A stretch of DNA of 64,000 bases from Maylandia zebra (taxonomy: Eukaryota; Chordata; Actinopteri; Cichliformes; Cichlidae), in contig NC_135184.1 in NCBI RefSeq assembly GCF_041146795.1, positions 9,352,967-9,416,966 of the forward strand. Reading direction: 5' to 3'. A model generated the notes under the pieces. That model saw only the letters and a list, made by a program, of their open reading frames with translations. It ran no database searches and was not told the DNA's origin. The position numbers and the translations under genes are program-made. Shown here in pieces: positions 6,274 through 54,122 of the stretch. Positions within the stretch are counted from its first letter, which is position 1. Each line of letters opens with the position of its first letter.

Positions 6274-7178
6274 GTGAGTAATATCATGAATGAACATTTA
6301 GCATATTTTCTTTTGGACCTCCTTTTGATATTTTTGATACTTTCTAAGTTTAAATTAATGCATACCAAATGGTTTACAAACCTGCATGTTATGGAGCCCT
6401 TCCATATAAAGTTATTGGCATTCTTTGCAGTTCTTTTATGATTCCCAGTTTTTAACCAACATTTTTGAGAGGTTTTCTACCCAAAGAAATGCTTGAAATT
6501 GAATGAGATAAAGACAATCACACCACTTATTTTTTCTTTGCGATCAGTGTACAGACGCTTTTTACTACAGTGTCCAAAAGTGACTCAGACAATGTCTGTG
6601 ACTTCTGCACTTCAGTTTTCTATGTGAAAAAATGAGGTGAGAAAAAGAAAAAAAATCAAGTTGAATCAAAGACTATGTTGAAACACTGTTCTTTGACGCA
6701 GTGCTGCCAATGTGCAACGTGTTTTAGCACGCTGCCTCTGAGGGCTGAATCGTTGGCTAGATACTTGGATACAAATATTTTAGAGGCTGTGTCAGGGTAG
6801 CACACGTCCCTCTTTAAAAAAGTATTAGTCATTTTTTTAAATCTTCCGTATCTGGTTATTATGGGGGTTTTTATTGAATGAACCAAATTGTCAAAGAACT
6901 CTGTGTTCAGTAATTTCTGTCACTTTTTGCCTCTTACATACCTTTCTATCTTTTCAGGTAATTCCTTTTTTTAATGCAGAGGGTTGATTCAATGGAAATA
7001 CCACTTTTAATTATAACTTATGTGTCAGTGTGGAGCTCTCGATCATATACCCATTCAAACCACTTGTGCTACTTTAGTGTTTTGGACGTCATTAGTTTTG
7101 TTTACTAAACTGTTGACTGAGTTTGTGTTTGAGGTTCTAATGTTTTTTCCCACCTTCAGGGTCAAAAATTCTTCTACA

Positions 7179-9674
7179 ATGAGTAACACGAGTCTCCCAC
7201 CTCTGACAAATCCAATTCCCACTGAACCAGCAGAAGAGAGCGCTGTGAGCAATAACTATTTTACAGCCATTGGTGCCCTCATCCTCAGCTTGGTCTTCCT
7301 CCTGGGTGTCCCTGGAAATCTCTTCATTGTCTGGAGCATCCTGGCCCGCTGCCGACAACGCTCAGTCACCACCCTCCTCATCCTCAACTTGGCATGTGCT
7401 GATGGGTTCCTCATGGCTCTCACCATCTTTTTCATCATCTACCTGGTCATGCAGTCGTGGGTCTTTGGTAACACCATGTGCAAAATTGTGTTCTACCTGT
7501 GCAACTCCAACATGTATGCGTCAATCTTTCTGATAACCCTGATGAGCGTGCACAGGCTGTTGGCCGTGGTCTTTCCACACACACTGTATCGCCTGATCAC
7601 CAGGAAGGTTGTGAGGAGGGTGATCCTAGGCACCTGGATGTTCGTGATGGTCATTTCCATTCCCTCGTTGGTGTTTCGAGCTGCTACTGCTCAAAACAAA
7701 ACGAAAGTTGTGTGTGCACCCAATCACACACTGTCTGAACATGTAAGTACACTTGTGTTGGCTATTTTTCTGCCACTGATCTGATTAGTTTGATTACTAT
7801 ATTTATTGTCATGCATAAAATGCCTTCAAAAATCATCTGTACATTTGAGAGCGCGAGAAATAGTGGGTAAGCAACTGAAAATGACATATATTGAGTAAAA
7901 GGTCCATAACAACTAACTGAAATTGAGGCTTTTTTGGTTTGTTTTGAAATAAAGATGCATTAATAGCTTAAACATCTGCACAAGCTGATATCAGCTTTCT
8001 TAATTCATATCAGTTTATTTCATGATAGAGTGCTGAATCGGTGAAGAAAGAAAGAGAGAGAGAGAGAAAAGCTTTGTTACTGTGTTTAAGGCCTTGGAAG
8101 CTGCAGCTTAACTAGTGTTCAAAATGTAGTTAAAATAACTAAGATTACACCAGACTGCATGTTTTTTAAGCTCTTCAGCCCACACCGTAAATACTGATGC
8201 ATGAGCAGTGGCACTGCACAAAAGTCTGAAAATCATTTTGCATTGATCCTTCATAAATGTAGTAATGCTCTTCTGTAAAACATTCCTTCTTTACAAGTAA
8301 AAGTCCTCCAAAGACCACATTGACATGACTTAGGTATTTAATCTCTAAGGAAATGGCTTTATATCCTCTCATGCAGGTGAGGCTTCAGTACACCACTGAG
8401 ACAGTGGCAGGATTCATTATTCCTTATGCAATCATCATAACCAGCTACGTTCTCATCCTGAAACGCCTGAGGGAGACCAGGTTTCAACGAAATGTCCGCA
8501 GCGAGAAACTTATCCTGGCTATCGTCATAATGTTTGGCCTGTTCTGGTTGCCGTACCACGTCATCAACATGATACAGGTGTGCAAGGGCATCTTCTCTAC
8601 CAATAACCCAATAACCACATCAAATCTGTTTGTAAATCGATTATCTGAGGATTCGATTGAATACTGAGTGGGTTTTTATTTTTCACCCAAGGTGGCAGCT
8701 GCGTGGTACCCAAAAGACTCAGCAACAAGAAAACGGTGAGTAACTGAAGATTTTCATAAACATGGTGCTAAAGTTAGTGAAGTACTATATTGTCATTTTA
8801 TGCATTATGTCCAGTAATAACAATACTCTGTAATTCAAAGCTGATATATGTAGTCTGTCTCTGTGCATGCAGTGACACACACCTAGATTTAATTTTTACC
8901 ATCCAGTAAACTGAATATACTATAATTGTAAAGAGTTTGAATGTGCCACCATCTTCAGTATATAATATTATCAAAATATTCCAAAATCCGGAGAAATCTC
9001 AATATTCGGGCTTCATGTGACACTGCACTAACAGCAGTCAGGATTCTGTTGTGGAAAATCACTGCAGGGGTTTAGGACCACTTACAGAAATCTCTCTGTG
9101 AATACCATGTTCACCTTACCATCCAAAATTGCAGGTTTAAGGTCTGACAAATGAGAAGTCATATGTGACTAGGATGTACAAAATTAGAAATGAATACATC
9201 AAAGAGTCAGCTCAGGTTAAGCCGGCAGAGGTAATATTAGAGAGGCAATGTTGAGATGGCATGCAGAGGAGGAAAGCATCTTTTCAGAGAAAGTCTTAAT
9301 AGGTGATAATTAAGGGGTACTGAGTCAGTCTGACAAGGCTATAATGGCACTCTGTATAAAAACAATCACCATCAATGTGAAATATCCAACTTTAACTTTC
9401 CTGCAGATTGTATGGTATGGCTGAGTCAACCCGAGCGGTGACCTCAACTTTGGCCTTCATCAGCAGCTGTGCTAACCCGGTCCTCTACACCTTTGCTGGG
9501 AAATCCTATATCAAGAATAATGGCTTTGCCTTTATGGCTAAGCTGTTTGAGGGAACATCATCGGAGCAAACAGGAACCAAAAGCACCCAGTTCACAGCAA
9601 AAGACGATCTGGGAAAGAATAACGTTGATTCTGAAAATCATACACTGGCTTCTCCTCTACAAAATCGATGTTGA
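7179..9674 (+). CDS. ltb4r: Leukotriene B4 receptor-like GPCR, gene A (4 coding exons)
   Basis: The model has coding exons 7179-7742, 8377-8577, 8692-8735 and 9407-9674, which join in frame to a 358-residue seven-transmembrane receptor. BLT1-type marks are GNLFIVW in TM1, LACAD in TM2, the FWLPYH form of CWxP in TM6, NPVLY in TM7 and the tail motif FMAKLFEGTSSE. This family binds leukotriene B4 or related lipids at the leukocyte surface and signals through Gi. Sequons are NTS near the N-terminus and NKT and NHT in the second extracellular loop. A Cys pair (TM3 start and loop 2) could form the usual disulfide. The DRY position reads SVHR, with His125 in place of Asp. The start was chosen at 7179 because an acceptor lies just upstream; a longer open frame from 7020 would begin in the intron. 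Ligand choice between BLT1 and BLT2 type cannot be settled from sequence alone. Confidence 0.88.
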
Positions 9675-19105: not shown

Positions 19106-20498
19106 GTGAGCAATATAATATATACTAAATAGCCATTTTAGCATATTTTCTTTTGGACCTCTTTTTGATAACAAACAGCATCTTATTTTTGTTGCAATAC
19201 TTACTGGTGATGTAAGCCTGGCAGTAATTAATTTTTTTAATTACTTGCAAAACTCCAACAGGGGAAAATAAACAGTGTGTTTTAGTGGTACCAGAGAAAA
19301 GAAATTAAGACTTGATGTCTTGTTCTCATCATATCATCGTATGTTGACCAGTTTGTGAACCTTTAGACTTCTGTCACTATCACTTATATTTATTTTGTCT
19401 TTGCGATCAGTGCACAGATGCGTCATACTTTTTACCACAAGGTGCAAAACTGACGCAGAGGATGACTGTCTGTGACTTCGGCATATCAGTTTTCGACATG
19501 AGACAAAGGAGAAAAAAAATCAACTTGAAACAAAGACTGTATACTTTTCTTTGACGCAGTGCAGCTAATGTTCGACAAGTTTGGGCTGAATCGTTGGCTT
19601 GGTTGCAAATATTTAAACGCTGTGTCAGGGTAGCACATGTCCTCAGTTATTGTGTATGACTGTCTTCTTAATATTATGGTTTGTTTGAATGTTGTTTGTT
19701 GAAAGAATCAAATCGTCCAAAAACTCTGTGTTCAGTAATTTCTGTCTCTTTTAAAAAAAAATAAACTAGTAAAAAACTATATCTAATTTGCTTAACACAG
19801 AGAAAAAATAGGTTGTGGTTTTAGGAAGTGTCTAAAATCTATCTGTACAGAGCTGATGGTTAAATGTCGAAAAATAAACACTACCAAAGTCAAACATTTT
19901 GGTTTTCATATTTGTAGAAGTTTTTTAGATCTATTAAGTAAAATAGGATTTAGGCTTTGGCAGTGCAGGTTAAACGTGTTTTGGGTGGTCTCCCATGATT
20001 TCTGGATTAAGGTATTGAAGCTCTTTCTTGATAAGAAACATCTGTTCAACGTGGAGAGTCCGAAAATGCAGTTCAAAGGTGCTTATCTTAAAAAGATAAA
20101 TGAATGAATGAATGATAATAAATAATACTGAAGGGGCAATCTGCTAACCTGACAGTCATGCTGAATTATAACCACTGTAAACAGTTTCCATGAAGTTAGC
20201 ATTTATCAAGGGCTACTCTAGTATTTTGGACCTCATTAGTTTTGTTTATTTATTGATTTATAGAGTTAAATGTCAATCTCATTTATTTCACCTCTGTAAT
20301 ATTCTTGATATTTAAATTGATCTATAGTTATATATATTTTAGAGCTATTGCTGATGTTTTGTAGACTTTTTAATACATTGTCATATTAAATTAGTTTAGT
20401 CTGTTACTGTCATTGTCTTGGAGCAGCTGTAAGCTACATAATTTCCTTTTGGTGTTCTAATGTTTTTTCCCATCTAAAGGATCAAAAATTCTTCTGCC

Positions 20499-23400
20499 AT
20501 GAGCTACTCAAGTCTCTCACCTCTGACTGGACCAAACCCCACCCCTGACCCTGATGATGAAAATGTTGTGAAAAATGACTATTCCGCAGCCATTGGTGCC
20601 CTCATCCTCAGCTTGGTCTTCCTCCTGGGCGTCCCTGGAAATCTCTTCATTGTCTGGAGCATCCTGGCCCGCTGCCAACAACGCTCAGTCACCACTCTCC
20701 TCATCCTTAACTTGGCATGTGCTGATGGGTTCCTCATGGCTCTCACCATCTTTTTCATCATCTACCTGGTCATGCAGACGTGGGTCTTTGGAAACGCCAT
20801 GTGCAAAATCCTGTTCTACCTGTGCAACTCCAACATGTATGCGTCAATCTTTCTGATAACCCTGATGAGCGTGCACAGGCTGTTGGCCATAGTCTTTCCA
20901 CACACACTGTATCGCCTGATCACCAGGAAGGTTGTGAGGAGGGTGATCCTAGGCACATGGGTGCTAGTGATGGTCATGTCTATCCCCTCATTGGTGTTTC
21001 GAGATGTGAAAAAAGAAACTGATGATATGAATCAAACAACATATGTGTGTGCATCCAATCACACACTGCGTAGACATGTAAGTACACTTGTGTTGGTTAT
21101 TTGTCTGCCACTGATCTGATTAGTTTCATAATCATATTTCCATCCATAAAATGCCTTCAAAAAACCTTCTGCATGTGAGAGCCCGTAAAATAGTGAGTGA
21201 GGTATTGAACATGATCACGCTTTGAGCAAAAGGTCCAGCACACCTATCTGAAATTAGGTTTGTTTTGTTTTTTGTTTTTTAATAAAGATGCATCAACAAC
21301 TTGAAAATCTTCATTGGATGATATCAGCCTTCTTAATTCACATCAGTTTATAATAGGGTGCTGAAGAGAAAAAAAAACTGAGAACAGTCTTTTCTTTAAA
21401 AATGAATTCTGTTTCAATGTCACAAACCACTGACTTAAAAAATAATAATAAAAGAAATAATGGTAATACTTACATAAAAATAAATTTTATTAGATACAAC
21501 TTCATGAACAAGTAGACAGTCTATTTTAGCAGGAGGTTGCAGATGTGTTTTTTTTACTGTGTTTAAGGCCTTTTATAGCTGCAGCTTAACTAGTATCCAT
21601 AGTGCTTTGAGCAGATTACTTTTACTAAAAGATTCTTTATACACTAGACTCCATGTGTTTCAAGCTTTTGTGTTGATCCTTCATAAAGGATCAATGCAAA
21701 ACATTGTTTTTACAGGTAAAAGTCCTCTTTTTAAAATACTAGTTTTGTTGGCATTTTTCCCTTTATTGGATAGCAAAGCAGTTAAGATAATACTTGAAGA
21801 GGAGGAGAGAGGGAAGACATGCAGCAAAGTGCTGTAGGTCAGATTCAAACCTAGGTCATAGCTCTCCAGCCATGTGGCAGGTGCTCGCTTGTTCACCCAC
21901 TAAGCTAAAGTGGCAACAATAAAAGTTGTTGTTAATTAAGGCTTCAAAACTAGTAGCATCCAAATTCCCTTCAGAATGTATATAGTAAAAATACTTATTA
22001 TGCAGAAGGTGCTTTTTCACACAAAAGACATCATGACGTGGCTTAAAGTCATCAGATGTTTGATTTTGTCCTCTAATTTGACAAAAACAAAGCAAATAAG
22101 TTAATTCAACTTAAACAGTTTTACAATTTTAGCTTTTACTTCTTTATTTGTTTTCCATATTTGGAGAAATCAGTTCATGTCTGAAGAAAAGTGCCTTTCT
22201 TTATATGCTCTTGTTTTCAGGTGAGGTTTCAGTACGCATTTGAGACAGTGGCAGGATTCATTATTCCTTATGCAATCATTATAACCTGCTATGTTGTCAT
22301 CCTGAAACGCTTGAGGGAGACCAAGTTCCAACGAAATGCCCGCAGCGAGAAACTCATCCTGGCTATTGTCATCACATTTGGTCTGTTCTGGCTGCCGTAC
22401 CACGTCATCAACATGGTACAGGTGTGCGAGGGCGTGTTCTTGACAAATATTCGCATCAAATCTGCTCAAAATTTCTGTTAAGAGAGTTGTGCTTTTGAGT
22501 GAATACTGAGTGTGTTTTGTTTTCTACCAAAGGTGGCAGCTGCTTGGTACCCAAAGAACTCACCCATAAGAGAAAGGTGAGTAACTTAAGTTTTCTGTAG
22601 AGGCTCTTTCTCCACTCTGTTACATATTCTTTACTTGGTTGTACATGTGTGTGCTTTTGTGTGGCATCAATATATGGTTAGTGTGTGGTGACAGTGTGTG
22701 TCCGTTTACCTTTATGGTGGGAAGCCTGTCTTGGTAGCTTCCCAGGATTCTGTTGCCCGGATCCCCACAACAAAGTTGTAGCTGCTGTGTCTCTAGCGGC
22801 TAGCTGTGGCTAATGTGTTAGCCAGTGAGTGAGACCCTCGGGTCACATCCCTAGCTCAGGACTGATGAGGAAAGTGGACATCTCACAGGCAATGGCAGAG
22901 TGTCCAGGCCCTTGGGCGGGATCCACTCCCTCATCAGCTTTGGGATCAGACTACAGCGGGCTAGGCCACCACCCCCTCCCCTGCCTGAGAATAACTTGGG
23001 GCACCTACAGCTCTGTGGATCCTTGGGTCACGTCCCCAGCTCGGCCCCCGACTTCCCACCACACCTGAGCAGGCGAGGAAGGTGGAAGTGTCTGGGCCCT
23101 CGGGCGGGATCCACTCTGCTGAAACCAAAAAAAAAAAAAAAGCTTTTTTGGGTGTGGGTGTGGGTGTGTGTGTGTGTGTGTGGGGGGGGGGGGGGGCATT
23201 CTTACAAGAGCAAGTACAAACTTTGAATGTTTAAATGCAAAAAGTGCAGTGGAAGTGCTAGAGGAACAGGTCAGTAAGAGCATCTTAGAGAGGTATAGTT
23301 TTTCACAAGTAAAGATGGGTAAAGGGTCACCAATCTGCAAAAACTACATCTAAAATATGTGCAGCAATTTCAGAGTAATGTTCCTCAATGTGAAGTTGTT

Positions 23401-28844: not shown

Positions 28845-30125
28845 TTTGATAACAGAGCAGCTGGAGAAGGAGAGGAGGGAGGTGGAGATGGGGGAGATGC
28901 CTCTAGGACTGAGAAGAACACAACTTGTACTTAATTATTGGGCAAATCTTCAAGGCCATGGACAGGATCACCCACCACAAGCAGTTCTTAACCCTTGCTG
29001 GGAGAAAGGAAGGTGGAAATCAAAGAGCTTTGGGTGGATTGTGGGTGGAAGAGCAAGTGAATTTAAACTGGATCAGTTGGACGAGTTTCGTTACCAGCAA
29101 TATCTCCCTGGATACTTCCTGAAGCCATAGTTGATTTCACTCTACTGGATAAGAAGACTAAGGATGGGGCATTTATTTTAAACTCCTATACTGTGCAGGC
29201 TTACATTGACCAGTTTTATGGTTGTGTTCAATTATATACGGATGCATCTAAGGATTCAGCCAGTCAAATTGGTGTAGCAGTTGTGGTCCCAGAGTTCATG
29301 GTTAAAATAGAAAAAAGGATCACTGATAGACTGTCAGTATTCACTGGAGAACTGCTTGCAATTCTGTTGGCGGTTCAGTGGGTGGAAGATATGAGGCCAT
29401 TAAAAGCTATTGTTTGTTCAGAATCAAGAGCATCATTGCTTAGTTTACAAGGTAGTCACTCAGATGTGAGAGCAGATATTCTAGCAGAAATTCAGCAAAC
29501 ACTGTTCAGGATAAACATGATGGGTCTTACAGTTGTATTTCTTTGGATTCCAGCCCATTATGGAATAATGGGGAATGAAATGGCAGACAGAGCGGCGAAG
29601 CAAGCCACAAAACATGGGACAGTTGACCTGGCTGTTAGTTTTGGTCAAGCTGAAGTGAAGAGTATCATACGGCAAGAAATGAGGGGTAGATGGCAAAAGC
29701 AGTGGGAGGAGGAAAGGAGAGGATGGTGGTTGTGTACAATACAAAGGGGGGTAGGAGAAATGAGGACCACTGGAAGGAGCAGGAGAGAGGAGATGGTCAT
29801 ATCGAGATTGAGATTTGGACATACTGGGTTAAATGCTACATTATTCTTGATTGGGAAACATAATCAGAATCAGAATCAGAATACTTTATTAATCCCGAAG
29901 GAAATTAGGGAAATGTGCCTTCTGTGGAGACACAGAAACTATAGAGTTTGTGATATTGCACTGTCCGAAATATCAGGTGGAGAGGAGACAATTATCCCAA
30001 AACCTTATTAATATGAAAATGAAATTGGATCTGGTTGACCTATTGCAAAAGGATTCTGGAAGTAAGAGTTACCAGGCTTTATTTCAGTTTTTTAAAGCGG
30101 GAAGAGTGTTTGAAAGGCTTTGAGG
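28845..30125 (+). mobile_element. I-type LINE, 3' half with RNase H domain and Cys-rich tail
   Basis: A 272-codon open frame from 29193 encodes an RNase H domain: YTDASKD, TGELLAI, then CSESRASL where the usual Asp is Glu, and the last motif GNEMADRAAK. Upstream (28845-29190) lie connecting pieces of the same polyprotein in other frames. Downstream, after a small insert at 29863-29908, a CxxC...HC finger-like stretch (CAFCGDTE...LHC) is encoded up to about 30110. RNase H in ORF2 with a terminal Cys-His motif is typical of I-clade elements (Nimb and relatives). Reverse transcriptase and the 5' end are missing. Confidence 0.75.
29863..29908. repeat. Short fish-repeat insert inside the LINE
   Basis: A run of aatcag units followed by actttattaatccc and gaaggaaatta interrupts the LINE frame between GKH and GKC codons, each within gggaaa. 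It matches the ends of the repeat seen at 2868 and 31296. Confidence 0.55.
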
Positions 30126-33300: not shown

Positions 33301-34210
33301 GTTCATTTCTTGAATTGGGTGCCTTTTTCATGCTTGAATGATTCACAGGTCAGTGTTAACTGGTTTAACAAACTAAAGAAAGTAATTGGGGCAAAAACCT
33401 TTCCTGAAGGTTTGAAGACGATCGGGTACAAGAACTAGAATAAAAAGAATGAAAAGGCTACCACCATCCAAAGAAAAACTTTAAAAGACCATCAGTCTGT
33501 TAAACTTTTGCATTTTGTACATGCATACACAACATGTGAAGATTTAAAGTATCTTATCTCTGTATTACTTTTTATCTTTTTCAGTTTTTATAGCATGAAT
33601 TAAAATTTTATCTCGTGGGCCATTTCACGGCAGATAATCTGACTAGATTGACTGAATGGACAGCATAAGCTTGAACTAATGGTTTTTCAGTTATAAAGAG
33701 TGTCCCAGTAAATCATCATTAAACAAGTTAAAATGGCTGCAGTGAAAAACATGTGCTTTCTTATTTTCCATGCATTCCCCAGGGGCAGTGCTGGGTCGTG
33801 ATGGTGGGGCCATGAAGCAGATGCTGCTGCCGTTCTGGCTCGGCCTCGGGGGTACCCTGGGATCTGGAAGACAACCATTTCCCTGGATCCACGTTTCAGA
33901 CCTGGCAGGAATCATTGTCCGCGCACTGGAGCCCCCTGCTGACACTCCACCCTCCTCATCACCACAAGTGTTCAACGGAGTCGCGCCGGCTCTCAACACA
34001 AACTATGAATTCACTAAAGAACTGGGTCGGGTCTTGAGGCGGCCCACCATCCTTCCTGTACCTGGCTTTGTCATGAACGCCCTGCTGGGTTCGGAGAGGG
34101 CCGTGATCCTTACTCAAGGCCAGAAAGTCATACCTAAGAGGACTTTGGAGTCTGGATTTCAGTACAACTACCCTGACTTGACCTCCGCTTTGAAGGAGAT
34201 TGTTAATTAA
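30323..34210 (+). CDS. sdr39u1: Short-chain dehydrogenase/reductase family 39U member 1
   Basis: Six exons join in frame to 302 residues: 30323-30338, 31062-31168, 31466-31548, 31649-31770, 31883-32035 and 33783-34210. The N-terminus MRILIGGGSGFVG is a Rossmann dinucleotide-binding GxxGxxG motif. AVNLAGENL, SRVDTTKAL, WVLVSG and PWIHVSDLAG are typical of this atypical SDR, which is related to bacterial epimerase YfcH and thought to use NADP(H). Its substrate is not established. Length fits the human protein (about 300 residues). The first exon carries only five codons plus one base. Intron 5 is enlarged by a hAT MITE and another DNA element. The gene converges on mettl17, with about 1 kb between the stop codons. 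Poly(A) signals are near 34250 and 34420. Confidence 0.93.
31296..31350. repeat. Short fish-repeat end in sdr39u1 intron 2
   Basis: aatttattaatccc followed by cgggaaattcag matches the repeat end described at 2868 and 29863. Confidence 0.45.
32089..32300. mobile_element. hAT MITE, copy 1
   Basis: This 212-bp element has ends caggggtgggcaactccagg and the near-complement ending gcctacccgtg. It is flanked by a perfect 8-bp duplication, gtctaaat (32081-32088 and 32301-32308). It lies in sdr39u1 intron 5. The same element is at 36286. Confidence 0.88.
32487..33113. mobile_element. Non-autonomous DNA transposon in sdr39u1 intron 5
   Basis: Both ends carry gttcacactgcagg in inverted orientation, followed inward by atcaaatccga and an A/T run. 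Flanks share taagtgt. A short frame beginning MAATELVGVVAAVYQ (32693 onward) lies inside and could be the truncated start of a transposon-encoded protein. The end sequence recalls PIF/Harbinger-type fish elements, but the flank duplication length does not settle the superfamily. Confidence 0.55.
33120..33780. other. Rest of sdr39u1 intron 5
   Basis: AT-rich intron with no recognisable element. Confidence 0.5.
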
Positions 34211-41754: not shown

Positions 41755-44700
41755 ATGAGGCGAGCGAGAAGTTCCAGAAATAAATGTGAGAGTGCACCAG
41801 AAAATGGAGAAGCCCAGTCAAAAACAGGTCTGTGTGTCGTATTAGCATAATATTGTAGCTGCTGCAGGGTAACTACGCCATTGAACTGTGGACATGTTCG
41901 GACAGGAGACAGCATGAAGATCAATATTATGAAGCTTCACTCATAATTCAGACACCGGTACTGTCTGTGTGAAATAATAATAAAAAATTGTCAGCTTAAA
42001 AAACAAACGAAACAATTTTTGTAGCTCGGTTTGCTGATAAATCCGGTTGCGTTTCTAAAATTTCAAATAAAATAAGTTCCTAAGTGAGCAGTTAAAACGA
42101 CCAATAAAAAAGTATTTATTTGTTGTGAGCTACATTTATTGCATACCAAAAGCGAAGGGGCCTTTTCTAATGTGACCTGCTTACTGTCTAACATATACTG
42201 CTAACATTCTGGAATGTTTATGTTAAATATGACCACTTTAATTGTAAAATAATGATGCCAATGTGTGTAGAAATGATTATGCTTTAAATTACTGTAAACA
42301 TTTAATTTTTGACATTTTCCCTCAAATTTTTGTTCCAGATGATGTCAGTGAGAGGGTTAACTCAAACATGATCATGCTACTTTTTAAACTTGTTTGTCCA
42401 GAGCAGCCAATCAGAACAAACTTGGAATAAAGGAAGTTTGCACTGAAATGAAGGCGAGAAAAAACAGTTTGTTCTGATGCATTTGTTGAACTAAGGGGAG
42501 AATTCGAGTGTAATGAGCTCCCTTTAAAAGTAAGGCTGATTTTCTTTGCAGCCACTCTTTGCTTTGCTTCTGTTAAAATTAAAATGTTTCACAGCTATTT
42601 GCACCTTCCAGGAAAAAAAGAAGAAGCATGTATTGGTTTTATTTTTCTTTTTACTATTTTGCAGTTTATCCAGACGTTTTTTCATTTTTTTTAAACAACA
42701 GCAGCATTAATACTTTTTTTATTTTAATATAATTGGTATTTGTCAGGGGACAAAAATTAAGGAAGAGGTATTACAGACACAGAGTTTTAATAACTTAAAG
42801 ACTTGTTTCTGATCTCTAAAAGGCCACTGTGTAAGAGTTAGATTTTCTTCTGTGTGTATTTCTAATCAGTGTGGCAGTGGATGGGGGATAAAAGACAGTG
42901 GGAATCATACTCTCCATCAGCCTGTGCCGTCTTGGACTCGGCCGTCTCTTCTGGGAAAACATCTGTCACTCTCTCTCTGGGCTCGGGGACAGCCTACGAA
43001 GTTGATCTGAAGAAGATGGTTCAGATCAATCCTGTCACAAAGTACAAACGGAAAGTTCGCTGTCAGAATGTAAAAGCAGGTGTGTTTTTCGCTGTGAATT
43101 TTCTGTCATCCTCCCTGCTCCCTGTATTCTGTTTTCATAAATCCTCATTTTTAAATTGTGTTGCTTGATATTTTCTTAACTGCAGTTTAGTTCATTTTTA
43201 AATAAATGTCTTTTGTAGAAATGGTATCTAAAACATAATTTCATGAAATTTATATAGTTTATTTCAGTTTAAATTTAATTGAAAAATCTGAATTCTTGGA
43301 GGTACTCACAGTCTTTCCTCTTTTCTCCTGTTTTATTAAGAAAGTCAGAATGAAGCTGGTGACGTTGCTACTCATAATGAGAAACCAGCTCAAGTTAAAG
43401 AGGAAGAGGAGGACACAGAAGAGCAGCCTGCAGCTAAGAAGAGAAGAGGACAAAGCAAGAGCCAGACAAAAACTGAAGAAATGCCCAAAAAAGCCAAAGA
43501 AGAAGTAAAAAGTGAAGGTAACATGGATCTAATTTCTTTATATACTTACAAAATTTTACAGCCATGACAACATTAGTCATTATCAAAGCACAGTAACTTT
43601 TAAAGCTTTTAAGGATCAGGTGAGCATGGAATTGCATCTGAACTGTAGATGTTTCTTCACCTCACTACTCTTTTGTGTTTGATCTGTTCTGAACAGAAGT
43701 TGTGAAGACAGTGGTCATGAAGGGAAAAGCACCAGTAGACTCTGAATGTAAAGCCAAACTGGGAAAGGTACAGTGTTGGCATCCACACGATATATAAATC
43801 TCACGATTCATGTCAGTCATGCTTGTGGTTTGACACCTGGCTGCTATAAGGCAAAGCTTTCCCCCAGTTACAGTTCCTCTTGTGACAAACTATTCTGATC
43901 AGTGTCTGCTTAAACACAAATAAATCTTTCAGTGAAGCTTAAATTTTCTAAATGGTTGTTTTCAACTGAATACCATATATATGATTGTGTTTTTCCACAC
44001 ACTAAACAGATAAGCAATAAATCTGAGAAGTATTGTTACAATTAGAAGATAATTGAATTCATCTTACCTAATTGTCAGTAGATTTACATATGACTGTTAC
44101 ATGAAAATATAAGACGTGGTAATTGGTTCTGTTTAAATTATTTTTTAACATAATTGCAAATCTGTTCTTTTTAAACACAAAAAAGTAAATATTTTATATA
44201 CAAATATTTATATTTCCTGAATGCAGACATGGTGGGATTCTTTTGATTTGTATAACTCATTTTTATATTTCTATTTCAGGCTCATGTTTACAATGAAGGA
44301 AATGATGTTTACGATGTGATGCTCAATCAGGTAACACAATTAAAAGGAAATAAATTATGCTCAGTTCCATCTTTATAGTTTTTTTTAGGGCTGTGTGACT
44401 TAGATCAGCCGTCCCCAACCCCCGGGCCTCGGACCGGTACCGGTCCGTGAGTTGTTTGGTACTGGGCCGCGAGAGTTGAGGCTCAGGTGTGAAATGTATG
44501 GTTTTCAGGGTTTTTATCGGTTTTCAGCGTTATTTTGTTATCGTCAACTCTGTTTTCCTGGGTCTTTTCACGTGTGTTATGAATAAATCTTCTTTTTTTC
44601 GGTACCGGTACTAGTTTTATTTTGTTGTATTTTTCCGCGACACCTTAAAGGCCGGTCTGTGAAAATATTGTCAGGCATAAACCGGTCCGTGGCGCAAAAA

Positions 44701-47700
44701 AGGTTGGGGACCGCTGCCTTAGATGGTCATACTAGGACTATCCCTGTCTACAACATCATCTAAAGTCAAAAGCTGAAAAACCTGCCAGAAACTGACTGTT
44801 TGGAGCAGACCAGAGGTTTTGGCTCACAGGGATTATTTGTGCACACGCTGACCTCATTGTTCAGTAAATATGCGATAGCATGATAGATCCATTTTAATAA
44901 CATTTATTATTATTTCATCCTGGAGCAGTATAGGTAGTACTTTATAGGTAATAATGAAAAAGTGAAAACTTTAAATCTCACAAATTCAGTTTTTTAGCTT
45001 CAGTTTCCAATTTGTAGCCTGCAGTAAACATCATTTGTTTCAATTTGCAGACAAATCTTCAGTTTAACAACAACAAATATTACCTGATCCAGCTGCTGGA
45101 GGACGACAGCTCCAAGGTTTACAGTGTGTGGATGAGATGGGGCAGGGGTATGTTCAATGTCAACTGACAGTTTTTGTTTGAAAATATTTGTCATTTTGCA
45201 GAAATTGCACCACCTTTGTGCATTTTGTTGATTTTTATCATTTGTTTCTGCAGTGGGTAAAGTAGGTCAAAACAGCCTTACAGTCTGTGGTGGAGACCTG
45301 CTGAAGGCCAAAGATGTCTTCAAGAAAAAGTGAGTTTTTCTGACCTTTTTAATTTGGTTCTGCCTGCTTCTAATGATGTTGATTTATTAACAAATCGTTT
45401 TAATAATTACTGTCTTTCTATTATCGATAATATTTGCCCTATTAAAACTAGACTAGCCCCTGTTACAAAACCCTCGCCCTGGATAAACGACAGCATTCGC
45501 TGTTTAAAGCGTGTCTGTCGTAAAGCTGAGCGTTTGTGGAGAAAGACTCATTTACAGGTTCATCTCTTTCATTTAAAAGACCTTTTAGTTTCCTTTAACG
45601 CTTCAATTCGTGATGCAAGGGCTGCTTATTTTTCAAACCTAGTCTCTAGGAGCAGAGGTAACCCTAAGGTTTTATTTGACACTATTAGGGATATAGTTGC
45701 TCCGGCTTCTGCTGCTGTCCCAATTTCTTCGAACGAAGACTGGGAAAATTTTCTTTCCTTCTTTGTTGAAAAGGTTAGCAATGTAAGGAGCAACATCTCT
45801 CCCTCCATGTACCATTTGCCTGTTCCGATTTTACTTAAGCCTGTCATATTTGAAAGATTTTCACCAGTGTCTTTACCTGAGTTGTTGACGCTGGTTACTT
45901 CAATTAGATCATCCTCTTGCCCCCTTGATATTTTATCTGGGTCTTTGTTTAAAAATGTTTTTGAGTCTATTGGTCCTAGTGTTCTTAAAATTATTAATGC
46001 ATCTCTACTCTCTGGTCAGGTCCCTGGTTACTGTAAAAGTGCTGTCATTCACCCACTTTTAAAAAAGCCTAAACTTGATCCTTCTTTGCTTTCCAGTTAC
46101 AGACCTATCTAAAAATTGCCTTTTATTGCCAAGATTTTAGAAAAGGTTGTGGCCAAGCAACTCACAGTTGTTCTAGATGAACATAAAATTCTCGATAAAT
46201 TTCAATCTGGCTTTTGTAAGGCTCACTCTACCGAAACTGCACTTCTTAGAGTGTCTAATGATATTTTGATGAATTATGATGCTGGAGAGTGCACTGTTTT
46301 GATGTTGCTGGATCTGACCTCTGCTTTTGACACTGTTGATCATCTTATTTTGTTAGATAGATTAAACCACTGGGTGGGTGTATCGGGTACCGCATTGGAA
46401 TGGTTTAAATCCTATTTGTCAAATCGATCTTTCTCTGTGGCTGCCTCTAAGTTCAGATCCTCCGTCAGCTCTCTTGCCTGTGGGGTGCCTCAGGGCTCTG
46501 TCTTGGGATCGTTATTGTTTTTGTTGTATTTACTCCCTCTTCTGCAACTTCTTAGCTCTTTCTCTGATATTTCATATCATTGTTATGCAGATGATATTCA
46601 GCTATATATCTCTTTTAGGCCACCTGATGTTTCTAAACTCCAAATCTTGCAGTCCTGCTTAGATTCCGTTAGAGATCGGCTGGCTGGTAATTACCTTCAA
46701 CTAAATGCTGATAAAACGGAAGTCATTGTCTTTGCTCCTGAGAAATTTGTTCCCCTCGTGGTTAAAAATCTAGGCCCTCTTGCTTCTTATATTAAATCCT
46801 CCATTAGGAACCTTGGTGTTACACTTGATCCAGCTCTGACGCTGGACACACACGTTAAATCTTTGGTTCGCTCTTGTTTTTTCCATTTAACAAATATTGC
46901 TAAGCTGAGTCCCATTGTGTCACGTTCCGAATTGGAAATGATTATTCATGTTTTTGTTTAATTGCGCTTAGACTATTGTAATTCCTTGTTTACTTGCTTA
47001 AGTAATGCCTCCCTGGAACGACTGCAGGGTGTTCAAAATGCTGCTGCTAAGCTTCTGATAAAGCATCACAAATACTCAGATGCCACTCCCCTGCTGATTC
47101 AACTGCATTGGCTCCCTGTCAAGTTCAGGGTCCATTTTAAGATCATAATCATGACTTATAGGGACCTGCACGGTGTAGCTCCAACTTACAGACTCCCAGA
47201 CTCTGGAACTCGCTCCCTTTGAGTTTGAGATCTGTGGACTCAGTCATGTCTTTTAAAAAGCAGTTAAAAACGCATCTGTTTAAACTTGCTTTTGGTTGAT
47301 TTTGTTTTGTTTGAGATTTTAATGTCTGTTTTCTGCCTCTGTAAAGCACTTTGTGATTTTATCTTGAAAGGTGCTATATAAATAAAATTTTACTTTACTT
47401 TACATTTTGTGACTGACAGTGGAAAAAGAAAGGTTTTCCAGGTGCCTTCATGGATGTGTGTTTGGTGAAATTCCAACTTGTTTGTTTTGCTGCAGGTTCT
47501 TTGAAAAGACCAAGAACGAATGGGAGCATCGAGATAGTTTTGAGAAAGTAGCTGGAAAATATGACATGGTGTTTATGGACTACAGCACGAATGAAAAGGT
47601 ACGTTTAGGAAAAGTCTTACTAAAAGTCATTCTTGGCATTTAGCAGCCATGTTAGCAAAGCCTCTGGGCGTTCTTACTTTGAAATTCCTATATAAGTGAA

Positions 47701-50700
47701 TAGAAAAAAGCCATACTACTAGCGGCAAAATTACTGCTTCATAAACACCTCAGTCCAGAGGCCTGAGCTGATTAGCATCTCTGGGTCCTAATTAGCTCTT
47801 TGGGGGTTGGATAACTGTCATCTCTGTTGTTTAAGAATTGTACCATAGATTTCTATTAAGGAGTCTTTGAGTGTTATAATGCCGAAACTTCTGTCAGCAG
47901 AAGTTGCACTGGAGAAATATGTTCAGAAATATGTTACATTCAATAAAAGATCACAGTAGATAGCCGCCCCTCCCCGAGCCTTGTTAAAAGGGATTTTTTT
48001 CTTCCCACTGTCACCAATTGTTTCCTTATATGGGGGCTGTCTGATTGTTTGGATTTTTTTCTGTATCTTTTTAGGGTTTCACCTTATAATATAAAGCACC
48101 TTGAGCTGACTGTTCTTGTCATTTGGCACTATATAAATAAAACTGAACTGAATTAAAAGGTTGGATGTGTCAGATTGTATTCTTGGATGTTTTTCACCAT
48201 TCCAGGAGGAGAATCAGACCACAGTGGATACTGTACCAAAAAAGAAAACCTCCGAGCTGGATTCAAGGATTCAGTCTCTCCTAGAGCTCATCTGTGATCT
48301 GAAAGCCATGGAGGAGTGTGTGCTGGAGATGAAGTTTGACACCAAGAAAGCTCCTCTTGGTCAGTCTGACTCAAATTCATTATTACAGGTTGATTTGACT
48401 AAATGAGAAGATGAAGTTGGTGACAGAGTGACCAGTATTTCCATGCACGGTGTCAGACTTGACATTTTTCTTCCTTTCTACCTTTAGGCAAGCTGACCCC
48501 AGAGCAGATCCGAGCAGGTTACTCAGCACTGAAGAAGATCGAGGATTGCTTGAAGAAGAAGAAAGGGAGCAGTCGTGACCTTTTAGAAGCATGCAATCAA
48601 TTTTACACCCGCATCCCACATGACTTTGGGTAAAAGGATGAAACTTTAGACAAAACCAGAGTGTAGATAGTTACCACCGATTCCTGTCTTGCTGTAACTA
48701 AAAGGTGTAACCCTTATAGGTTGAAAACTCCCCCACTTATCCAAACAGAAGAAGAGCTGAAAGCCAAAATTGCCCTTTTGGAGGTAAAATGTTTTGATTT
48801 TATTCGGTTTGCTTAAAAAACCTTTCTTAACTGAACAATGTCTCCCATCCCTGTTTTAAAGGCACTGAGTGACATCCAGATAGCAGTAAAAATGGTCAAG
48901 TCCAGTGAAGACAGCGATGAACATCCTCTGGACAGACAGTATCACTCCCTCCGGTGCAAACTGCAGCCTCTGGACTCCAGCAACAATGAGTACAAGGTCA
49001 GTGTGATTTAAATAATTAACTAACCAGTTTTACCAAACCGTGTCACATTATTGATGTTACTTGTTCTTAGCCTCAAAACAATTTGATAGGCTGATGTAGT
49101 TGCGTAAGACTTTTCTGCATCTAAATCATTATGCACAGAGAATAATTTATTCATTTGTAGTCATTTCACTTGAAGTGCTGCAACCTCAGCGTTGACTAGT
49201 TGATAGTTTGTGGTGCATCTTCTCATCTGATCATATTCTCCTTGGTAGGGCAATTGCTGGTGTTACTTTATTAATGCCAAACCTGTCAGGGCTCATATAT
49301 TATTTTTGACAGCAGGATGAACAGACTACTTGTGACCTTCTGACTGCTAGTTAATTTATGTTTACACTAACTAAACTAACTAACACTATGTCAGGAACAT
49401 AGTGTTCCAAAGGTCTGTCTGCAAACACAGATAGTTAGTCTGTCAGCAGAAGCTGCTGTTGAGTTTGTGAAACCTCCTATCATGTCCAAATGTGAAAACA
49501 GCACAGGCTCTGTTGTTCAGCTGAAATAAAAAAATATTTGATATGCTGGAAATACTAGCTTTTTAATGTGTGGTTTTTAAAATCATTATTATTATTATTA
49601 TTTTTATTTAGACTAAAATATCTGGTGGGGCACTGCTCTGTAAACAGTGTCAAATCTTGTTTAATTTAATCCAGAGATAACGTGCATATATCTCACAGTG
49701 AACTGACTGATACTGAGTAGGTACCATGGAGATTTCCTTTGGCTGACTACATTTCCATTCACACTAAAACTTGTGTAGTTGTTAGTCTTCAGTATTATCT
49801 TGGATTCCTTTCAGCATTTTGCATTGAGCTAACTTTCCTCCTCTTTGTGTGAAGGTGATAGAGCAGTATCTGCACACCACTCACGCCCCCACCCACTGTG
49901 ACTACACCATGACCGTGCTTGACATTTTCTCAGTGGACAGAGACGGGGAGAGCAAAAACTTCCTGTCACAGTTAAGTAACAGGTAGGAAGAAATACTGTT
50001 ACTGCTTTATGACTTCAAGCTGACTTCAAAATCAGATTTATTATGCTGCATGTTTGCATTGATAAAAATCCAACATTGATGTCAATGAAAATTATGGGGT
50101 TTTTTTTCACAATGAGCCAAGCTAACCATCTACCTGTCTGCCAGGACTCTGCTGTGGCACGGTTCACGTCTGTCTAACTGGGTCGGCATCCTCAGTCAGG
50201 GACTTCGAGTGGCCCCCCCTGAAGCTCCTGTTACTGGTTACATGGTAGGATGGAATATCAAAATTCAAAAAGACCAGTCCTTAAGACCAGTCTTAGGTCC
50301 AACACGGGTTGCAGTACACTAGCGGAAAGCCTGGATATTAAATATTCAATATTTATTGAATATTGAATATTTACAGTACTTATTGTTGTCATCATTGTTC
50401 TTCATTGGTATCTTAAAATGTCTTGATCTTAATTTTTTAAAACCGTGTAGGAACCTCGGTGAGAGAATGAAAGACAAATAAAATATGCAGTTTGACTTTG
50501 TCTCAGCTTGTATGTAACAGAAGTTAAACACATTTTTAAGAAAAAATCAATAAAATTGATCTAAATAATTACATTTTAAGGAGTCTCTAAAATGTGATCA
50601 ATTTTCAACATGAAATTATCTCAGGCATTGAAATTGAACTCACATCGGTATATTACATTTTCTCATTTCTCTTTCACTCAGTTTGGTAAAGGTATCTACT

Positions 50701-53700
50701 TTGCTGACATGTCATCAAAAAGTGCCAACTACTGTTTTTCCAACCAGAACAACAACGTTGGACTGCTGCTACTGTGTGAAGTAAGGGTGGTTTTTTGTTT
50801 GTTTGTTTGTTTGCCATTAATAATTTTCATTATTGAAGTTTTGTTGCAGCTGCTCTGGCCTGCAAATGTCTTAAATTTGCTGCCAAGGAAATGTCTTGTC
50901 TGTAATCTGCAATGAAGTTTTGTTTTTGCAGGTTGAACAGTTATATTTATAATTTGTATCCAGATACTTTTTTGATCCTGCAATGAGGATGTTTACTGCT
51001 GAGGTCTCAGGTAGAGACCCGTAGGAAGCCAAAAAAGCTGAATTTGATACCCAGAAAAATTCCTCTGCAAAGTGTAGTGGCCTAAATATAATGCAGCACT
51101 GGTAAATATTCATATATTCATGCCCACAGGTCGCTCTGGGAGAATCTAATGAGCTGCTGGATGCAGACTATGAAGCAAACAATCTGCCTGCTGGAAAACA
51201 CAGCACCAAGGGTCTGGGACAGACTGGACCTGACCACAAAAACGCTGTCACACTGTAAGTCTCTCTAATTATAATGATATATTTAACACAGGCCAGTTAC
51301 TGCTCAGGTATTTGGTCCATTGCTTTAAAACGAGGCCTTCATAAGTTTTAGCTCACTCAAAACACAGCTGCCTATCTTGTTTAGCACTGCTCATTCAAGG
51401 ACAGTATAGACGGGATGCATGCAACCTCTAAGTTCAGTGAAGCAGTTCTCCACCTGCTGCTTACAGCAGGTTTCCAGAGTCGTCTAAGAACTGTCATTAC
51501 CAGCTGCTGTTGTAGTCTGTACGACTCCAGGATAACAGACTCTCTGGAGAGCAGCTGAATGACACCAAAGAGCACAACAATACCCCACTGGTGGGAAAAC
51601 ACCATGGGAAGGTCCAGGAATAGTTGTGTAGAGATCACTTATCATTTAAAACAAAAGGAAGGGAATATTGTAAATAGATGGGCAAAATAAATAAAAGAAA
51701 TGCTAAAAAGCAACACAGAATACACTTAGGCAGCTTTAATGTCCCGTTCAAGCCCACTGAAGTAAAGTCTAGAGCTCAATTTGTGTGGGAAGCACTGATT
51801 TAAAGTGATAAATTTAGTTCAGAGACCCTTGTAACCCATAGTGCTTGTATAGATTACCTAAACTGTTTATCTAATCTACTTAGACCTCTCTACTGAGGGC
51901 TATGTTCAAGCACTTCATATAAATGTCAGATGTTTATGTTACAGAAAAAGGCAATTTGGAGTGAGACCACTTAAATGAAAGTCAAAATGCTGAATGCTGA
52001 ACTCTGCTGGCTACATGATGACTCATTCGTTAATGCACTGGCCTTGCTTTCCCCTTGTTTATTCTGCTGTTTTTCCTGCTGTGCCGCTTCTCCTCCATAG
52101 CTTCCACCAAATTCTGTTTTTCACTGCAGACCAGTCAGCTGACCATGAAACACAGCAGTGAATGTGTTTAGCTCCATTTGTGAAAATGAAGTCTGACCTG
52201 CCATGATAGAAAATGCAGTTTGTTTGTGGTTTGCTATGACCTTATTAGATGGTTGAAACTGCTGCAGTCTGTGGGGTTATACACTCATAGCTTCTCTAGT
52301 CTGCTTGTCACAGTTTCGTAAATCCCTTCGGTGTGTAAGGAGCCTGTAAGGCTGCAATAAAACCGTAGCATATATGAATGTGGTGGGTGACGGTGTTTGT
52401 TGTGGTCGTGGTGTGTGTAGGCGTGAAAATAGGTGCACAAAGTTTTCTCAAATAATTTATTAAATAATACGAATAGTTTCTAAATGTAATTGGTAACCTG
52501 TCCAGGGTGCATCTTGCTCTATGACAGCTGGGATAGGCTCCTGCCTTCGTCTGATAAGTGGGAGAAAATGAATGCATGCATCAATAGATTGACCCACTTT
52601 GTGAAGAATAAGCAGTATAAATGTCTAACTGTGATCCCATGGTTGGATTTCAAACTCACTGGAGATGTAGCTGGATGAGAAACAGACCAGCAGGAAAGGG
52701 CCAGGGGTAGGTGGTTAGCAACATCCGAATTGTTTCAGATGGATTAAAAAACCAAGTTTGGATAAATTACCAAAGATTGAAGAGGTGTTCACATAACTGT
52801 GCCCCATATAAAATCGATGTGTTTGAAACACTGGGTTGAAGTCACTGTGAGTAGTCAGTGAGACTAGAACGATGCTCCCTAAATGCACTCCATTTACCAG
52901 TGAACAAATTCATAGTCACAATCTACAAAAACGATAGAGAAGATTCAACAGTGTGAACATTTTAGAGCCATATTTATTTGTTGTTGTTGAGTTGTCTAAA
53001 AACAAGAATGCTACAGAAAGTAATTTCAAGATATTAACGCACGGTTTACAGTCCTACATTAAGGCCTGTTAATTACTGAATCCTGTTTCCACTATAACGA
53101 CTCTGTCATTATATATAGTGACAAGTCTCACCTTAGGCCTATATTTAACCTACATGCCATGAGCAGTAATTACATTCTTTTAGACTGGTATTAACAAACT
53201 GCACCTGTCCTGTTAGTAAGTTACCTGAAGCTGAAGAAATTAGTTTACGACTTTTCACTGCAGTTTTTTTAATGCCTTAAAATACTCTTTAATCTTCACA
53301 TGGTGTACCTAATTCTGTTAAAATTAGCAGGAGGTTTGGAATATATCTTTATCACTTGCATAACAACAGCAGCCCTGCATTTGTCCAATACAAGCCCAAG
53401 GTTTGATAACGGAGCGTATTCTATTTGTAAATTAATTGTAGTATACTGCTGCACACTGTTTCACTACAGTTTAAGTGATTTGCAAAACATCCCCAGAGAT
53501 GGATGGCATAGTGGTGCAGTGGTTAGCACTGTTGTCTCACAGCGAGAAGGTCCTGGGTGTGAATCTCCTGGCCAGCTGGAGTCTGCATGCTCTCCCTATG
53601 TGTGCTTCCTCGGCTTGTTAGGTTAATTGGTAATTCTAAATTAACGATAAATAAGAATGTGAGTGGTTGTCTGTCTTGTGTTGGCCTTTTAATAGATTGG

Positions 53701-54122
53701 AAGTGCCCTGCCTCTCGCTCCAAGATATCTGGGATGCGATTGAGCTTTCCCATGATTCTGAACTGGAGAAGGAGTTAAGAGGATGGATCAAAGATCCTAA
53801 AAAATAGCCGAAGAAAAAAAAAAGAAATTGAAGCCAAAGAGTGCAGAATATTTTCCTTTTTTGGGAAAAAAATTGTTACAATCACCTAAAAGAAATTTTA
53901 AACAAAGGTAATTTGTGTTAATCCCACGGATTTATTTTATTGTTTCTCGATTTCTTTCTCAGGGACGGTATGACGGTGCCGATGGGGCCTGGCGTGAAAA
54001 CGGGAGTGGGTAAATCTAACGCTTACTCCCTCCTCTACAACGAGTTCATTGTTTACAATCCTGCACAGACTCGCATGAGGTACCTGCTGCGTGTAAAGTT
54101 TAACTACTCATCACTGTGGTGA
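41755..54122 (+). CDS. parp2: Poly(ADP-ribose) polymerase 2 with an N-terminal WWE domain
   Basis: Seventeen exons join in frame to 654 residues. Order: basic N-terminus [13 protein letters not shown] domain (about 25-94, exon 42870-43079); acidic/basic linker; WGR domain (about 178-285, with VWMRWGRVGK); helical regulatory domain (about 325-460); ADP-ribosyl transferase domain. The catalytic triad is His499 (LWHGSR), Tyr533 (GKGIYFADM) and Glu629 (YNEFIVYN). PARP2 detects DNA breaks in the nucleus and builds ADP-ribose chains. Human PARP2 has about 583 residues and no WWE; the extra length here is that domain. Exons: 41755-41827, 42870-43079, 43341-43517, 43697-43767, 44280-44330, 45051-45147, 45254-45329, 47496-47598, 48206-48359, 48488-48629, 48720-48783, 48862-48996, 49855-49982, 50145-50244, 50682-50780, 51130-51254, 53963-54122. 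Introns hold a hAT MITE, an L2 LINE and SINEs. Confidence 0.95.
44406..44716. mobile_element. hAT MITE in parp2 intron 5
   Basis: This 311-bp element starts cagccgtccccaacc and ends ggttggggaccgctg. Flanks acttagat (44398-44405) and ccttagat (44717-44724) match at 7 of 8 bases. The body is rich in ccggtaccggtcc. Family: the common cagnggtccccaacc type of vertebrate hAT MITE. Confidence 0.85.
45332..47405 (+). mobile_element. L2/Maui-type LINE in parp2 intron 7
   Basis: The ORF2 remainder includes the end of a linker region ([13 protein letters not shown]), reverse transcriptase ([28 protein letters not shown], and YADDIQLY with the catalytic AspAsp) and a C-terminal part ([14 protein letters not shown]). 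Two in-frame TAA codons break it (46111-46113 in the PISKLPFIAK context, and 46959-46961 before RLDYCNSL). A deletion follows after HGVAPTY near 47185. The 3' end has aaggtgctatataaataaa and then actttactttac, typical of fish L2. The endonuclease part is missing, so the copy is 5' truncated. Its 5' junction lies within a few bases of the exon 7 donor. Confidence 0.88.
47950..48158 (+). mobile_element. 5'-truncated LINE-type 3' end in parp2 intron 8
   Basis: The text runs ttgttaaaagggattttt, cttcccactgtcaccaa, ataaagcaccttgagctgactg and ggcactatataaataaaactg, then gaactgaatt. This is the widespread fish repeat that ends like an L2-related LINE. Only the 3' segment is present. Confidence 0.6.
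51260..52490. other. First part of parp2 intron 16, nothing recognised
   Basis: No exon-like or element-like segment was identified between the exon 16 donor and the first SINE piece. Confidence 0.45.
52497..52580 (+). mobile_element. SINE-like repeat fragment, 3' portion
   Basis: acctgtccagggtgcatc, then tatgacagctgggatagg and ctcctgcc match the 3' part of the fish tRNA-like repeat seen in fuller form at 53503. Confidence 0.6.
53503..53800 (+). mobile_element. tRNA-like SINE-type repeat in parp2 intron 16
   Basis: The front reads ggcatagtggtgcagtgg, then ttagcactgttgtctcaca and gggtgtgaatc (A- and B-box-like), then gtctgcatgctctcc and gttaattggtaattctaaatt. This is the standard order of a very common teleost repeat. 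The last 100 bases have diverged, and a run of A closes it at about 53822. Confidence 0.65.

Follow-up and report, generated by a model that had tools for sequence, protein, structure and literature searches.

The window analysed here, the whole 64,000-nucleotide stretch of the Maylandia zebra genome, encodes a fish PARP2 in which a WWE domain and a charged linker precede the WGR, PARP regulatory and PARP catalytic domains. Judging from the residues and splice signals of exon 2, which carries the WWE domain, and by analogy with the human protein, we consider it probable (roughly 0.72) that this exon is spliced in and that the domain would act as a folded PAR reader, placing or activating PARP2 on existing chains, a job reported for the N-terminus of human PARP2. 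The architecture is genuine, though it had been described before: Perina et al. 2014 (PMC4245714) reported a WWE domain at the N-terminus of PARP2 homologues in non-mammalian metazoans, fish included, which answers the initial annotation's question of whether a WWE-bearing fish PARP2 was on record and leaves no novelty in the architecture, already known from that report. What is added here is small, namely the exon structure and a residue-level reading of how the PARP2 WWE domain might hold its ligand.

Joined at splice junctions derived from the sequence, the 17 exons of parp2 (Table 1) give an open frame of 654 aa with GT-AG borders in 16 of 16 introns, exon 17 lying 2.7 kb past exon 16. Along the joined protein, Pfam domains follow in the order WWE (residues 25–88), WGR (188–267), PARP_reg (302–433) and PARP (448–648). 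By Pfam, with domains assigned to exons by residue count, exons 8–12 span the end of WGR, a linker and the PARP regulatory domain, and run just into the start of the catalytic region. Motifs with H, Y and E, including YNEFIVY, are present and matched in an alignment with PARP2; the residues concerned we take to be the H-Y-E catalytic triad. Compared with the PDB, the joined protein best matches a 590-residue PARP2 chain (E 1.1e-231), in which fish residues 120–654 align from chain residue 51. Bit scores of 774 (PARP2), 440 (PARP1) and 200 (PARP3, whose chain comprises the catalytic part only) place the fish protein nearest to PARP2 of the three, and the earlier description of the rest of the gene as a normal PARP2 stands, with all 17 exons intact, WGR, PARP_reg and PARP in place and PARP2 as the best structural match. 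Within intron 7, at ~45400–47390, lies a LINE-like retrotransposon remnant in the sense direction of the gene, named from its translation, with reverse transcriptase-like frames of 283 and 282 aa separated by a stop.

Table 1. Exons of parp2 in the window, with positions counted from its first base.
Feature	Position	Strand	Description
Coding exon 1	41755..41827	+	73 bases; ATG start codon to phase-1 GT donor
Exon 2, WWE domain	42870..43079	+	210 bases, phase 1-1; AG before, GT after; PF02825 62.6 bits
Exon 3, charged Lys/Glu-rich linker	43341..43517	+	177 bases, also phase 1-1
Exon 4	43697..43767	+	Gene model
Exons 5-7, most of WGR	44280-44330, 45051-45147, 45254-45329	+	Gene model and Pfam
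Exons 8-12	47496-47598, 48206-48359, 48488-48629, 48720-48783, 48862-48996	+	Gene model and Pfam
Exons 13-17	49855-49982, 50145-50244, 50682-50780, 51130-51254, 53963-54122	+	Catalytic domain, stop codon

Exon 2 had been described from the sequence as a single WWE domain of 210 bases in phase 1-1, and a profile search bears this out. Its reading frame, from 42872, runs for 69 residues without a stop and ends in CQNVKA, with two stops in each of the other two forward frames. Residues 1–63 of the exon align with positions 3–66 of the 67 in Pfam WWE (PF02825) at 62.6 bits (E 4.7e-17; cut-off 21.1 bits), a match far beyond chance. The closest PDB structures are the WWE domains of DTX1 (E 1.6e-7), HUWE1 (4.2e-7) and TRIP12 (5.1e-5), with RNF146 far weaker (0.089). 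When the domain alone was folded from its single sequence with AlphaFold, the mean pLDDT was 56.9, a low-confidence value that speaks neither for nor against the WWE fold.

The claim that mammalian PARP2 has no WWE domain agrees with the structural comparison: the best PDB PARP2 chain shares the WGR, regulatory and catalytic domains with the fish protein, but aligns only from fish residue 120 and holds no WWE counterpart, because the 50 residues before its alignment are fewer than the ~64 of a WWE domain. Compared on the placement of the domain, the homologues of Perina et al. 2014 resemble fish PARP2 in having WWE at the N-terminus, and no difference was found. From its published distribution the domain looks old and is absent in mammals; a loss in the mammalian line would account for the contrast no less well than an acquisition in fish. 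PARP10 offers a parallel case, with a WWE domain in zebrafish and chicken and none in mammals and frog (PMC4245714). According to a 2010 survey, WWE occurs in clades 2 and 3, and the passages on WWE there name the domain for no clade 1 protein (PMC2964712); in the accessible text of a 2005 survey (PMC1266365), WWE in PARP2 was not found. A literature search, with most subscription journals outside its reach, returned no title on the function of the PARP2 WWE domain.

The splice signals of exon 2 are ordinary and not weak. Its donor agrees with the consensus at eight of nine positions, the highest count in the gene and one equalled by three other exons, and its acceptor has pyrimidines at 10 of 15 positions, where the gene as a whole ranges from 6 to 14. 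We infer that exon 2 is normally spliced in. As the initial annotation had foreseen, a transcript that skipped it would stay in frame, giving an open frame of 584 aa; this, together with the 1-1 phase common to exons 2 and 3, would suit a regulated cassette from which both a WWE-containing protein of 654 aa and a WWE-free, mammal-like protein of 584 aa were made. We regard such a cassette as unlikely, the splice signals of exon 2 matching those of other exons in quality.

What the domain might bind can be read from its alignment with WWE domains of known ligand contacts. HUWE1 stacks Trp1619 on the adenine, bonds Gln1667 to it and holds the phosphates through Tyr1658, Asn1669, Thr1672, Asn1674 and Arg1676 (PMC11269756). 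Fish PARP2 is identical to HUWE1 at six of these seven contacts (W1619, Y1658, Q1667, N1669, T1672 and R1676), and carries Tyr at the seventh, N1674; in HUWE1, the change N1674T left PAR binding unaltered (PMC11269756). The preference of RNF146 for iso-ADPr has been attributed to Tyr107 and a basic loop, whereas in HUWE1 and TRIP12, which favour ADPr, the Tyr107 position is Trp and the loop contains two Asp (PMC11269756). Fish PARP2 also has Trp at this position, with G-D where HUWE1 and TRIP12 carry the two Asp, and K-R directly after. Since six of the seven HUWE1 contacts are kept and Trp occupies the Tyr107 position, PAR binding by the fish domain is likely and a preference for iso-ADPr is not indicated, while a lean towards chain ends is plausible. 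The published affinities of HUWE1 are 0.15 uM for 11-mer PAR, 31 uM for ADPr and 132 uM for iso-ADPr (PMC11269756). TRIP12 binds ADPr at 118 uM and iso-ADPr at >500 uM, and its weak binding of 11-mer PAR (only 13.3 uM) with nearly the same contacts runs counter to reading the fish domain as a PAR reader (PMC11269756). DTX1 has Trp at the Tyr107 position yet favours iso-ADPr (190 uM) over ADPr (709 uM) (PMC11269756), so that Trp alone does not settle the ligand preference of the fish domain. The initial annotation's choice of iso-ADPr as the ligand is thereby weakened, by the Trp shared with the ADPr-favouring HUWE1 and TRIP12, although DTX1 still speaks on its side.

HUWE1, TRIP12 and DTX1, the best PDB WWE matches, have the Trp, Tyr, Gln, Asn and Arg contacts in common with fish PARP2, and differ in that their WWE domains are carried by ubiquitin E3 ligases; over 61–62 aligned residues, identity to the fish domain is 40% for HUWE1, 31% for TRIP12 and 27% for the second WWE of DTX1. 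The WWE domain of RNF146, an iso-ADP-ribose reader, belongs to the same family and retains the Gln, Tyr and Arg contacts, but differs from fish PARP2 in having Tyr for Trp and another loop, and in this genome two RNF146-like domains show 27–29% identity to the fish PARP2 WWE. Alternatively, the domain could be made and yet have lost PAR binding, serving as a structural or protein-binding module. The WWE domain of PARP14 has been described as diverged and without PAR binding (PMC10450202), and the branch of PARP2 in a tree of the domain is very long, at 3.53 changes per column; with six of the seven contact residues retained, we nonetheless hold this loss of binding to be improbable.

The WWE domain of fish PARP2 occupies the stretch of the protein where human PARP2 has its N-terminal region, a disordered region that has been reported to bind PAR (constructs 1–100) and without which PAR-dependent PARylation and branched chains were abolished (PMC6089979). 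After human residues 1–70 or 1–87 were deleted, however, damage foci persisted for the most part (PMC9023293); recruitment may therefore not require PAR reading by the N-terminus, and the importance of the disordered PAR-binding part is disputed between these two reports. Most simply, the fish WWE domain would be a folded reader of PAR that serves the step attributed to the human N-terminus. In the mechanism we propose, the folded WWE domain would bind PAR through the adenine and proximal phosphate of ADP-ribose, with a possible HUWE1-like preference for chain ends, and would place or activate PARP2 on pre-existing chains, mainly those made by PARP1; PARP2 so placed could then extend or branch the chains, while WGR would read the DNA break. 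A wider proposal, which we put forward tentatively and regard as somewhat doubtful, is that vertebrate PARP2 ancestrally sensed PAR through its WWE domain, of HUWE1 type and directed to chain ends, that PARP2 is a PAR-primed secondary polymerase extending or branching PARP1 chains, and that mammals lost the symmetric exon with the frame intact, keeping a disordered PAR-binding N-terminus. If this were true, the DNA-reading (WGR) and PAR-reading (WWE) inputs of PARP2 could be separated in fish. A folded PAR-reading part with known contact residues, removable as a single in-frame exon, would make it testable whether chains, and not breaks alone, recruit and activate PARP2. PARP2 as studied in fish models has a domain missing from the mammalian protein.

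A six-frame search of the 962 Mb genome (63 contigs) found at least 17 WWE matches, one of them parp2 exon 2. A WGR search gave four matches at three places among nine scored candidates, one of them exon 6 of parp2; we infer that parp2 is single-copy. When the protein of exon 2 was searched against the genome, it matched itself alone (one match, 10 candidates scored), with no close second copy found. The 1-1 phase had been put forward as the classic mark of exon shuffling; the phase itself is confirmed, and the argument from it to shuffling loses force, exon 3 being 1-1 as well and no second copy having been found. Recent shuffling of the WWE domain into fish parp2 from another WWE gene, for which a single symmetric 1-1 exon with borders near the domain edges might speak, is thus very unlikely, as the domain occurs in PARP2 of many non-mammalian metazoans and is therefore old (PMC4245714), the exon's protein found only itself in the genome, its identity to the 14 other aligned WWE places is 23–37%, and the TRIP12-like WWE domain of this genome, a possible donor type, is split across two exons. 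In a tree of the domain (14 of 18 aligned rows), PARP2 grouped with HUWE1 and TRIP12 (support 80/90) at an open fork; the very long PARP2 branch and a long-branch warning led us to leave the tree aside as proof of where the WWE domain came from. Of 539 pattern matches in prokaryote contigs and 36 in viral ones, tblastn confirmed none as a relative, which is unsurprising for a vertebrate gene.

Mammalian PARP2 shares its promoter with the gene for RNase P RNA. An Rfam scan of the window (1–64000) found no family at gathering score, RNase P RNA included. Elsewhere in the window, two very similar open frames resembling seven-transmembrane receptors (7017–7784 and 20478–21119) were recognised by eye in the same direction, and are likely to reflect a local duplication. 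Also by eye, a 314-aa open frame at 29067–30011 looks like the RNase H portion of a retroelement, and one at 33746–34210 resembles the C-terminal portion of an SDR39U1-like epimerase.
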